DNA from: Asanoa ferruginea
Lineage (GTDB): Bacteria; Actinomycetota; Actinomycetes; Mycobacteriales; Micromonosporaceae
Direction of reading: 5' to 3'
Length of the DNA stretch: 64,000 bases
NCBI RefSeq assembly: GCF_003387075.1
Contig: NZ_QUMQ01000001.1
Coordinates: 8,556,001-8,620,000 of the forward strand
The first letter of the stretch is position 1. Every line of letters starts with the position of its first letter. Of the stretch, positions 60,110 to 63,968 are shown in pieces. The notes under the pieces were generated by a model. That model did no database searches. It was not told where the DNA came from and saw only the letters and a program-made list of their open reading frames with translations. A program made the translations under genes and the position numbers.

Positions 60110-60736
60110 CTACCCCGCGTCGGTCGGGGTCTCCGCGGCCGGGCCGCCGGCGCCCTCGGCCACGATGCGGTCGGCGACCTCGCGCATGGTCATCCGGTGG
60201 TCCATCGCGGTGCGCTGGATCCACTTGAAGGCCTGTGGCTCGGTCATCCCGTAGGTCGTCATCAACGCGCCCTTGGCCCGCTCGACGCTCTTGCGGGTCT
60301 CCAGCCGGTCGGCCAGACCCGCGACCTCCGACTCGAGCGAGGAGATCTCGGAGTAGCGGGACAGCGCGATCTCGATCGCCGGCACCAGGTCGCTCTTCTG
60401 GAACGGCTTGACCAGGTAGGCCATCGCGCCCGCGGCGCGCGCCCGCTCGACCAGGTCGCGCTGGCTGAACGCGGTCAGGATGATGACCGGCGCGATCCGG
60501 CCGCCGGCGATCCGCTCGGCGGCGGCGAGCCCATCCATGATCGGCATCTTGATGTCGAGGATGACCAGATCGGGCTTGAGGTCCTCGGCCAACCGCACCG
60601 CGGTCTCGCCGTCGGCGGCCTCGCCGACCACGTCATAGCCCTCTTCGACGAGCATCTCCGCCAGGTCGAGCCGGATGAGCGCCTCGTCCTCGGCGATCAG
60701 CACGCGCCGACGTTCGGCAGTCTGCGACTCGCCCAC
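60110..60736 (-). CDS. pdtaR: ANTAR-domain response regulator, PdtaR type
   Basis: A 208-residue regulator: receiver domain with phospho-acceptor Asp61 (VILDIKMPIMDG) followed by an ANTAR domain (VERAKGALMTTYGMTEPQAFKWIQRTAMDHRMTMREVADRI). ANTAR domains bind paired hairpins in nascent RNA and prevent termination. The order and neighbourhood match M. tuberculosis Rv1626 (PdtaR), which controls ethanolamine/iron-linked and other transcripts. The partner kinase is not in the window. Confidence 0.92.
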   Translation of the reverse strand: MGESQTAERRRVLIAEDEALIRLDLAEMLVEEGYDVVGEAADGETAVRLAEDLKPDLVILDIKMPIMDGLAAAERIAGGRIAPVIILTAFSQRDLVERARAAGAMAYLVKPFQKSDLVPAIEIALSRYSEISSLESEVAGLADRLETRKSVERAKGALMTTYGMTEPQAFKWIQRTAMDHRMTMREVADRIVAEGAGGPAAETPTDAG

Positions 60737-60835: not shown

Positions 60836-60911
60836 GTCCCCGTAGCCCAATGGCAGAGGCACGGAGCTCAAACCTCCGACAGTGTCGGTTCGAATCCGAC
60901 CGGGGGCACCA
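60836..60911 (+). tRNA. tRNA with anticodon CAA (leucine by code) but class I fold
   Basis: A 76-base tRNA with encoded CCA. The acceptor stem GTCCCCG pairs with CGGGGGC (one G-T pair), D-stem GCC/GGC, anticodon stem CGGAG/CTCCG with loop CTCAAAC, so the anticodon is CAA, and T-stem GTCGG/CCGAC with loop TTCGAAT. T8, T33, T54-T55-C56 and A73 are all present. The variable loop is only ACAGT (5 bases), whereas normal leucine tRNAs have a long variable arm. By anticodon it should read UUG. Lies 93 bases before a glycyl-tRNA synthetase gene. Confidence 0.85.
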
Positions 60912-61004
60912 CTGGCCCCATTGGCCCCAGGTGTCGCCGCCCGAAAGGGCTCGCCCGCCACCTGCGTAGGCTTGACGGGACAAATCCCCACCAAGGAGTC
61001 ATCG

Positions 61005-63968
61005 ATGCTGACCATGCAGGACGCCCTGTCGCGGCTCACCGCCTACTGGGTCGACCAGGGTTGCCTCACGGTCCAACCGATGAACACCGAGGTCGGCGCC
61101 GGCACGCTCAACCCCGCGACGTTCCTGCGGGTGCTCGGGCCGGAGCCGTGGCGGGTCGTCTACGTCGAGCCCTCCGTGCGCCCCGACGACTCGCGCTACG
61201 GCGAGAACCCCAACCGGATCCAGACGCACACCCAGGTGCAGGTCATCCTCAAGCCCGAGCCGGGCAACGCGCAGGAGCTCTACCTCAACAGCCTCGCCGC
61301 CCTCGGCATCGACGTCGCGGCACACGACGTGCGGTTCGTCGAGGACAACTGGGCCGCGCCGGGCGTCGGCGCCTGGGGCCTGGGCTGGGAGGTCTGGCTC
61401 GACGGGCTGGAGATCACCCAGTTCACCTATTTCCAGCAGGCCGGCGGGGTGACCCTCGACCCGCCCTCGGTGGAGATCACCTACGGCATCGAGCGCATCC
61501 TGATGGCGCTTCAGGGCGTCCGGCACTTCAAGGAGATCGCGTACGCACCGGGCGTCAGCTACGGCGAGGTCTTCGGCCAGGGTGAATACGAGATGTCCCG
61601 TTACTACCTCGACGACGCCGATGTCGAGACCAACCGGGTGCTCCTCGACCTCTACGCCGCCGAGGCGCAGCGGATGGTCGACGCCGGGCTGCCGGTCCCC
61701 GCGCACACCTACGTGCTGAAGAGCTCGCACGCCTTCAACGTGCTCGACGCCCGCGGCGCCGTCTCCACATCGGACCGGGCCGCCGAGTTCGGCCGGATGC
61801 GCCGGCTGGCCGGCGAGGTCTCTCAGCTCTGGATGGCCCGCCGCGAGGAGCTCGGGCACCCGCTGGGCGTGGTCCCGCCGACGCCGGCCGCGACCGCACC
61901 CACCGAGACCGAGGCGTCCACCGGCAGCCGGCAGTTGGTCTTCGAGATCGGCACCGAGGAGATGCCGCCGGCCGAGGCCCGCACCGCGCGCGAGCAGGTG
62001 CGCCGCGAGCTGACCGAGCGGCTGGCCGCGACCCGGCTGGCGCACGGTGACATCCGGGTGCTGGCCACCCCGCGCCGGCTCGTCGCGATCGTCGACGGCG
62101 TCGCCGACCGCGAGCAGGACCACGTCCGCACGGTCCGCGGCCCGAAGGTCTCGGCGGCCTACGACGCGGCCGGCGAGCCCACCAAGGCCGTCCAGGGTTT
62201 CGCCCGCGGCCAGGGCGTCGACGTGGCCGACCTCCAGGAGCAGGACGTCAACGGCACCGCGCACGTGACGGTCGTGAAGCACGAGGCCGGCCGGCCCGCC
62301 GCCGAGGTGCTGGCCGACGTGCTGGCCAAGGTCGTCGCCGCGCTGCGGTCGGCGAAGAACATGCGCTGGAACGACCCGGCCCTGTCGTTCACCCGCCCGG
62401 TCCGCTGGCTGCTCGCCCTGCGCGGCGACGAGGTCGTGCCGTTCGCCGTCTCGGCGCTGGCTTCCGGCCGCGAGACCCGGGTGCACCGCAAGGCCGCGAC
62501 GCCGGTGGTCACCGTCAACAGCGCCGAGACGCACCTCGACACGCTGGCCGCGCACGGCATCGTGGCCGACCCTGACGAGCGTCGCGCGCAGATCGTCGCG
62601 GCGGCCGAACGGCTCGCCGCGGGCGCCGGCGGCCAGGTCGACGTCGACGGCGAGCGGGCGCTGATCGACCAGATCAGCTACCTGGTCGAGACCCCGACGC
62701 CGCTGCTCGGCCGGTTCGACGAGAGCTACCTGCGGCTGCCCGAGGCGGTGCTGGCCAACGTGATGCGCAAGCACCAGCGCTACCTGCCGGTGCGCGGCGC
62801 CGACGGCGCGCTGCTGCCCTGCTTCGTCGCGGTGGCCAACGGCGACATCGACGAAGACCTGGTCCGCGCCGGCAACGAGGCGGTGCTGCGGGCCCGCTAC
62901 GAGGACGCGGCCTTCTTCTACCGCGCCGACCGGGACACCCCGCTCGACGCGATGCGCGCCCGGCTGGAGCGGCTCACGTTCACCGACAAGCTCGGGTCGA
63001 TGGCCGACCGGGCGGCCCGGATCAGCACGCTGGCCCGCACCCTGGCCAGCTCCATCGGGTTGAGCGGCGCCGAACGCGACACCCTGGGCCGCGCCGCGGA
63101 GCTGGTCAAGTTCGACCTGGGCGCCCAGCTCGTCACCGAGATGACCAGCCTGGCCGGCGTGATGGCGCGCGACTACGCCGCGCACGCCGGCGAGCCGGCC
63201 GCCGTGGCCGAGGCGGTCTTCGAGAGCGAGTTGCCGCGCAACACCGGCGACGCCGTGCCCACCCACGTCCCCGGCGCCCTGCTGTCCCTGGCCGACCGCC
63301 TCGACCTGGTCGCCGGCCTCGCGGCGACGGTCGGCCTGCCGACCGGCAGCAGCGACCCGTTCGCGGTGCGCCGCGCGGTGCTCGGCCTGCTCGCCGTGCA
63401 CCGCACCGGCCTGGTGCCGGTCAGCCTGACCGAGGCGCTGGCCGAGGCGGCCGCGCTCCAGCCCGTCGAGGTCTCGCCGAAGGTGCTGGCCGACTCGGGC
63501 GAGTTCCTGACCCGCCGGCTCGAGCAGGTGCTGGTCGAAGAAGGGCACCCGATCGATCGCGTACGCGCGGTCCTCCCGCACGCCGCCCGCCCGGCGCTGG
63601 CCGACCGGCTGCTGCACCAGCTCGACGAGCTGGTCAAGGACGAGCGCTTCCGGGCGCTGGTCGAGGCGATCCAGCGGGCCCGGCGGATCGTCCCGGCCGG
63701 CACCCCGGCGGAATACGACGCGGCGGCCCTGGTCGAGCCGGCCGAGCGCCGCCTCGACGAGGTGGTCCGCGGAATCGAGGTGCCCGGCACCGACCTGACC
63801 GCGTTCCTCGCGGCGGCCGGCAAGGTCACCGAGCCGGTCAACACGTTCTTCGACGAGGTCTTCGTGATGGCCGAGGAGCCGGAGCTGCGCAAGGCCCGCC
63901 TCGGCCTGCTGGCCACGGTCCGCGACCTGGGCGACGGCATCCTCGACTGGGACCACCTCCGGATGTGA
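61005..63968 (+). CDS. glyS: Glycyl-tRNA synthetase, alpha and beta subunits fused
   Basis: A 987-residue bacterial-type GlyRS. Residues 1-285 are the catalytic alpha subunit (TMQDALSRLTAYWVDQGC, then QVQVILKPEPGNAQELYLNSL, VEDNWAAPGVGAWGLGWEVW, GGVTLDPPSVEITYG), followed by a Pro/Thr linker and the beta subunit from about 309 (LVFEIGTEEMPPAEA) with its HD-like region and a C-terminal anticodon-binding domain. The ATG at 61005 has AAGGAG at 7 bases; the longer frame to 60882 overlaps the tRNA and is rejected. Mycobacterium and Streptomyces use the unrelated alpha-2 GlyRS, so this form is atypical for the phylum. Confidence 0.95.
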   Translation: MLTMQDALSRLTAYWVDQGCLTVQPMNTEVGAGTLNPATFLRVLGPEPWRVVYVEPSVRPDDSRYGENPNRIQTHTQVQVILKPEPGNAQELYLNSLAALGIDVAAHDVRFVEDNWAAPGVGAWGLGWEVWLDGLEITQFTYFQQAGGVTLDPPSVEITYGIERILMALQGVRHFKEIAYAPGVSYGEVFGQGEYEMSRYYLDDADVETNRVLLDLYAAEAQRMVDAGLPVPAHTYVLKSSHAFNVLDARGAVSTSDRAAEFGRMRRLAGEVSQLWMARREELGHPLGVVPPTPAATAPTETEASTGSRQLVFEIGTEEMPPAEARTAREQVRRELTERLAATRLAHGDIRVLATPRRLVAIVDGVADREQDHVRTVRGPKVSAAYDAAGEPTKAVQGFARGQGVDVADLQEQDVNGTAHVTVVKHEAGRPAAEVLADVLAKVVAALRSAKNMRWNDPALSFTRPVRWLLALRGDEVVPFAVSALASGRETRVHRKAATPVVTVNSAETHLDTLAAHGIVADPDERRAQIVAAAERLAAGAGGQVDVDGERALIDQISYLVETPTPLLGRFDESYLRLPEAVLANVMRKHQRYLPVRGADGALLPCFVAVANGDIDEDLVRAGNEAVLRARYEDAAFFYRADRDTPLDAMRARLERLTFTDKLGSMADRAARISTLARTLASSIGLSGAERDTLGRAAELVKFDLGAQLVTEMTSLAGVMARDYAAHAGEPAAVAEAVFESELPRNTGDAVPTHVPGALLSLADRLDLVAGLAATVGLPTGSSDPFAVRRAVLGLLAVHRTGLVPVSLTEALAEAAALQPVEVSPKVLADSGEFLTRRLEQVLVEEGHPIDRVRAVLPHAARPALADRLLHQLDELVKDERFRALVEAIQRARRIVPAGTPAEYDAAALVEPAERRLDEVVRGIEVPGTDLTAFLAAAGKVTEPVNTFFDEVFVMAEEPELRKARLGLLATVRDLGDGILDWDHLRM

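Follow-up and report, generated by a model that had tools for sequence, protein, structure and literature searches.

A short-armed tRNA-Leu(CAA) ahead of a second, fused glycyl-tRNA synthetase in Asanoa ferruginea is very probably an ordinary leucine tRNA

In some bacteria, the duplicated prolyl-tRNA synthetase ProRSx and its partner tRNA-ProA form a mistranslation pair. ProRSx is tabulated in a review (PMC9437257). Leucine tRNAs are usually of class II (PMC7609411), and a tRNA-Leu(TAG) with a short variable loop has been noted in mycobacterial tRNA clusters (PMC6582537). We analyzed a 64,000-nucleotide stretch of the genome of Asanoa ferruginea (the window; contig NZ_QUMQ01000001.1, positions 8,556,001 to 8,620,000), in which a short-armed tRNA with a leucine anticodon lies directly ahead of glyS, a gene for a glycyl-tRNA synthetase (GlyRS). 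An earlier note on this DNA had offered three readings of the arrangement: a coincidence, a decoy or non-coding tRNA, or a tRNA charged with an unexpected amino acid. Of these, only coincidence was supported. The tRNA is very probably an ordinary elongator leucine tRNA of class I that reads UUG, with the second GlyRS of the genome downstream by chance and without a working connection to it.

The only tRNA detected in the window by ARAGORN was this tRNA-Leu(CAA), at 60836..60911 on the forward strand. It scored 54.4 bits with the Rfam model RF00005 (gathering score, 29) and has a full cloverleaf, an encoded CCA and a variable loop of 5 bases, the structure being as the earlier note had described; a loop of this size is not the long arm that marks class II. 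Whole-genome searches with RNA models scored part of the first-look candidates; two of the models were our own. R2, a class II leucine model of 5 rows, gave 13 matches in the genome at E 1e-4, and the window tRNA was not among them. R1 was built from 15 short-armed leucine tRNAs, comprising 4 from this genome, 7 from phage records and 4 from plasmid records. The window tRNA scored 86.9 bits with R1, a match by construction as it is itself one of the 15 rows.

Work in Escherichia coli identified A14, A15, U48 and A73 as features of bacterial leucine tRNAs. All four are present in the window tRNA and in the other 6 distinct leucine tRNAs found in this genome (7 of 7), as well as in every one of the 41 CAA tRNA loci read (one gene counted twice). 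We infer that the leucyl-tRNA synthetase (LeuRS) of the genome attaches leucine to the window tRNA. A LeuRS editing-domain search of the genome returned one strong match and one weak match (30.7 bits), the latter read from its sequence as ValRS.

A rival explanation is that the fused GlyRS glycylates this tRNA and that glycine is put at UUG, making the two genes a dedicated mistranslation pair. It draws on the adjacency of the tRNA and the GlyRS in all six genomes of the genus, on the presence of the fused enzyme in addition to an alpha2 GlyRS, and on the lack of a second CAA tRNA among those found in the genome. However, most glycine determinants are missing. These are N73, the first three acceptor pairs (1-72, 2-71 and 3-70), C35 and C36, as set out in PMC3990555. 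Against that description, only G1-C72 of the window tRNA agrees; it otherwise has A73, U2-G71, C3-G70, A35 and A36. The CC of a glycine anticodon is absent, as the earlier note had remarked. By comparison, the 5 distinct glycine tRNAs of the genome start with GCG and carry U73.

The meaning of the UUG codon was evaluated by comparison with two genus mates, using 26 and 39 genes that provided 10,200 and 14,552 codon pairs, respectively. Across these alignments, UUG appears still to mean leucine. Specifically, leucine was the partner of A. ferruginea UUG in 44 of 51 pairs with one mate and 88 of 100 with the other, and glycine in 0 and 1. The single UUG-glycine pair sits in the tRNA-glyS spacer, in a non-coding extension of the frame before the glyS start. 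Restricted to conserved surroundings, the comparison gave no UUG-glycine pair at all, and leucine accounted for 33 of 36 and 64 of 67 partners. Over all pairs, CUA likewise had no glycine partner, and its leucine counts were 5 of 7 and 10 of 13. Charging with an unexpected amino acid is therefore unsupported: UUG aligns with leucine rather than glycine, the tRNA shares its leucine features with the other leucine tRNAs of the genome, and it lacks most glycine determinants.

The genome contains 63 tRNAs above the Rfam cut-off, of which only the window tRNA has a CAA anticodon. A second, class II tRNA-Leu(CAA), which the earlier note had proposed to look for elsewhere in the genome, was unexpectedly not found, and the R2 search found none in any of the six genus genomes. 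R2 identified class II tRNAs for CAG, GAG and UAA, one each per genome; these 18 matches scored at least 87.7 bits and the next match scored 57.5 bits, 30 bits lower. Because class II CAA tRNAs of other genera of the family score 80.8 to 92.6 bits with R2, any in the genus should have been seen. Short-armed tRNAs with leucine anticodons number four in the A. ferruginea genome: the window CAA, two UAG and one CAG. The CAA tRNA of the locus studied here and the UAG tRNAs are of class I in all six genus genomes.

Dense tRNA arrays were observed in A. ferruginea at 384.6-387.4 kb (L038) and in genus mates (L099, L100 and L102-L106). A class I tRNA-Leu(UAG) lies approximately 2 kb from the former. 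In some genus mates, the arrays hold further leucine tRNAs, with CAG, GAG and CAA anticodons; in the stretches found via R1, these are of class I.

The gene downstream of the tRNA, at 61005..63968 on the forward strand, encodes an alpha-beta fused GlyRS of 987 residues, as the earlier note had claimed. The protein has both Pfam domains (PF02091 and PF02092) and scored 1383.6 bits with the NCBIfam glycine--tRNA ligase model NF011499 over residues 1-986, against a curated cut-off of 1244. The fused form is indeed atypical: a search with the alpha domain matched 11 of 150 genomes of the order Mycobacteriales, that of A. ferruginea included. A search for a second GlyRS, also proposed in the note, revealed an alpha2 enzyme at 161678-163015 of the genome, which was unexpected; alpha2 is present in all six genus genomes. 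Alpha2 was above its cut-off in 7 of the 11 order genomes that have the fused form and not in the other 4. The patchy distribution suggests horizontal acquisition, and the fused GlyRS was probably acquired in this way. The gene is conserved within the genus, a full-length comparison with one genus mate yielding 189 synonymous and 103 residue-changing codons. Its closest named relatives among the matches listed are from Amorphoplanes (74% identity), Actinoplanes (73%) and Winogradskya (70%). The fused enzyme would most likely charge the ordinary U73 tRNA-Gly set alongside the alpha2 enzyme.

The 93-base spacer between the tRNA and glyS (60912..61004, forward strand) was evaluated using an alignment of the six genus loci, promoter and terminator scans, and a fold z-score. 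A hexamer at 60967-60972, TAGGCT (TAGACT in the other five genomes), and AAGGAG at 60993-60998, ahead of the glyS ATG at 61005, are kept in all six genomes. The TAGACT-like hexamer could be the -10 box of a promoter belonging to glyS itself. In the pattern scan, the spacer showed no sigma-70-type promoter and no terminator, and the fold z-score was -0.07. A search for a T-box or another known RNA there returned only the tRNA above its Rfam gathering score. Overall, the spacer varies among the six loci while the tRNA is kept, being identical in five genomes and having one change in the sixth.

Two further explanations bear on this spacer. In the first, the tRNA would serve the fused GlyRS as a decoy or regulatory RNA, or would be a decayed copy that plays no part in translation. 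The tRNA does lie just 93 bases ahead of glyS with no terminator found between them. However, the near-identity of the tRNA next to a variable spacer, its full cloverleaf with an encoded CCA, and the failure to find another CAA tRNA in the genome make a decoy or non-coding RNA unlikely. In the second, the tRNA reads UUG as leucine but is co-transcribed with glyS, the tRNA promoter also driving the GlyRS. This would fit the shared strand, the short spacer, the missing terminator and an order kept in six of six genomes. On the other side, the conserved hexamer and AAGGAG suggest that glyS has its own promoter, though the sigma-70 scan found none. We consider such co-transcription improbable; it is compatible with an ordinary leucine tRNA and would add a weak link between the two genes.

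The GlyRS lies downstream of tRNA-Leu(CAA) in six of six genus genomes. Beyond the genus, ARAGORN and R1 detected no tRNA within 1.5 kb upstream of the fused GlyRS gene in the 10 other order genomes that have it. At 80 named GlyRS loci listed, with flanks of up to 4 kb, ARAGORN detected a tRNA of any kind in 6, including one class II tRNA-Leu(GAG), and no class I tRNA-Leu. Similarly, R1 had no match within up to 4 kb at 17 named GlyRS loci (13 from Actinomycetota and 4 from Chloroflexota, by their titles).

The site on the other side of the tRNA is more widely conserved. A gene for an ANTAR-domain response regulator (60110..60736, reverse strand; PF00072 and PF03861) is the divergent neighbor of tRNA-Leu(CAA), an arrangement conserved in the family Micromonosporaceae and in other families of the order. 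The regulator gene is present in 59 of 61 genomes of the family. We read the best 30 of these 59 loci by regulator similarity, 3 from the genus and 27 from elsewhere in the family. All 30 have a tRNA-Leu(CAA) in the slot beside the regulator, of class I in 22 (the 3 from the genus among them) and of class II in 8. Of these loci, the 3 from the genus have the fused GlyRS and the other 27 do not. The tRNA is therefore the older occupant of the slot. The fused GlyRS would have been placed 3' of the tRNA in an ancestor of the genus.

These data also bear on the rival explanations. Conservation of the tRNA-glyS pair in Micromonosporaceae, which the earlier note had suggested checking, holds within the genus (6 of 6) but not at the other family loci. 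Co-occurrence, as would mark a dedicated synthetase/tRNA pair, was thus seen in six of six genus genomes, at 0 of 27 other tRNA loci and at 0 of 17 other GlyRS loci. Moreover, a class II tRNA-Leu(CAA) fills the slot at 8 of the 30 family loci. Taken with the codon data and the glycine determinants, these observations render glycine charging exceedingly improbable. A decoy or decayed copy fares hardly better, the tRNA being present where the GlyRS is absent. The reading of coincidence, in contrast, agrees with a pair kept in the genus and missing from all 27 family loci read outside it.

Several points weigh against an ordinary leucine tRNA without a link to its neighbor. The tRNA-glyS linkage is complete within the genus, as a functional link would also predict. 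The four leucine identity positions come from E. coli, and the set also occurs in 3 of the 59 other tRNAs of the genome (one Ala and two Lys). Finally, leucine makes up 86-88% of UUG pairs versus 92-96% for CUG and CUC. Much of this shortfall comes from poorly conserved stretches, the other partners being chiefly Ser, Val, Met, Phe and Arg, and rare mistranslation at UUG may still be compatible with the codon data.

The earlier note had taken leucine tRNAs to be necessarily of class II, and this did not survive comparison across the order. R1 matched 141 of 150 order genomes at E 1e-16 or better, representing 52 of 56 genera. At this threshold, 13 of 18 other genomes of the family had a match; no class I match was found in 9 of the 150, including the remaining 5 of the family. 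The 29 order loci besides our own that were returned and read, out of the R1 matches, all hold a class I tRNA-Leu (19 UAA, 6 CAA and 4 UAG), and the ANTAR regulator adjoins all 6 CAA loci. In this order, leucine tRNAs need not be of class II. Short-armed tRNAs with leucine anticodons are common here and are no sign of recoding, which removes a false lead.

At the slot beside the regulator, class I and class II tRNAs seem to have one and the same function. On a tree of the regulator gene, which is a gene tree rather than a species tree and in which 14 of 37 inner branches are open, the tRNA class switches 7 times, at least 3 of them by well-supported branches. When labels were shuffled, approximately 220 of 500 draws had as few class changes, so class does not cluster on this tree. 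One genus (g61) has both classes in the same slot: class II at L260 and class I at L270. The DNA 3' of the tRNA also varies: over 0.6-1.4 kb downstream, 13 of the 27 family loci have no frame in common with any of the rest, and this applies even inside some genera. This side of the tRNA looks like an insertion site, of which the GlyRS would be one of several occupants.

A free-standing LAGLIDADG-like gene, with a helix-turn-helix start and two motifs recognized by eye, follows tRNA-Leu(CAA) at several of these loci. It is intact at L253, L257, L259, L268, L277 and L270, starting 32-36 bases past the called tRNA end, and remnants occur at L265 and L269. The L270 protein passed the Pfam LAGLIDADG_3 cut-off; the L253 protein did not. 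The gene was found at 6 of 8 class II versus 2 of 19 class I family loci (Fisher p 0.002, from raw counts), and independent pairs on the tree gave about 2 for the link with class II and 1 against. The raw counts are suggestive, and as a lead only, the gene might spread one tRNA class.

A broader reading, which we hold tentatively and rate as doubtful, is that tRNA-Leu(CAA) of either class can stand in for the other in the family and that the two have repeatedly been swapped at one slot. Mobile DNA entering the 3' side would have helped, as LAGLIDADG-like genes in some genera and as the fused GlyRS here, and one LeuRS would serve both shapes. The tRNA finding itself is ordinary; this class exchange is what remains of specialist interest. 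Close relatives with either class of tRNA-Leu(CAA) in one slot amount to a natural experiment in which one LeuRS apparently charges both structural classes. The system would allow both the dependence of LeuRS on the long arm and the class change of tRNA genes to be tested directly.

A gene for an NAD-kinase-like protein overlaps the end of glyS (window position 63965 onward; L055:4966-5892; PF01513 and PF20143). It was considered as a traveling companion of the fused GlyRS and rejected: no such gene was found within up to 4 kb of the 80 named GlyRS loci, fused or split, nor in the 0.6-1.4 kb downstream of the 27 family tRNA loci. The comparison included 10 further loci whose sequence does not extend beyond the glyS end. 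Elsewhere in the genome, a second, shorter ThrRS-like protein and two ProRS-like proteins seem to be present (L034, near 3154 kb, L035 and L036), based on sequences read by eye.

The literature searched, outside which most subscription papers fall, gave no report of class I tRNA-Leu being common in the order or of class exchange at one locus, a weak negative. Short-armed tRNA-Leu is not reported in the available parts of PMC9976931, PMC7609411, PMC4524478, PMC8450103, PMC11541572 and PMC9569102. Within the same limits, the search gave no named precedent for a pair of GlyRS and leucine-anticodon tRNA, or for 'tRNAReL'.

Short-armed leucine tRNAs were also observed on mobile elements. In a Tsukamurella plasmid record (L076), one gene separates a short-armed tRNA-Leu(CAA) from an ANTAR-type regulator; a site-specific integrase gene lies on the opposite strand, 12 bases beyond the tRNA end. 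In the Streptomyces phage Sham (L074:2632-2706), the record gives tRNA-Gln(caa) for what ARAGORN calls a short-armed tRNA-Leu(CAA). Identity to the window tRNA in 295 matching phage records was 60-80% in 284, 80-90% in 7 and 90-95% in 4. A phage origin of the window tRNA was considered; conserved synteny instead favors a resident gene.

Comparison with described systems places the locus as follows. Like the ProRSx pair, it combines a duplicated synthetase with an odd tRNA; it differs in that charging appears unaltered and in that the link to the synthetase is seen in one genus only. The listed relatives of the fused GlyRS, from Actinoplanes, Amorphoplanes, Winogradskya, Saccharothrix, Frankia, Streptomyces atratus and Anaerolineae, align over nearly the whole protein at 44-74% identity. 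Unlike here, a class I tRNA-Leu lies within up to 4 kb at 0 of the 17 loci (of 80 listed) searched with R1. The mycobacterial cluster tRNA resembles the window tRNA in its leucine anticodon and short variable loop. As noted in PMC6582537, however, it departs from an isoacceptor that has the expected larger loop, whereas the window tRNA, the only CAA tRNA found in its genome, comes from a conserved chromosomal gene. Class I tRNA-Leu genes also occur in Felixounavirus VpaE1, Mycobacterium phages ET08 and Itos, Streptomyces phages Treat and Sham, and Rhodococcus phage Dorin. By ARAGORN, these phage tRNAs have leucine anticodons and are 74-78 nucleotides long; the D-arm start TAGCCCAA is common to 5 of 10 read, and the records label 9 of 10 as tRNA-Leu. 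The phage tRNAs are carried by phages, mostly amid other tRNAs, whereas the window tRNA is chromosomal and its synteny is conserved.

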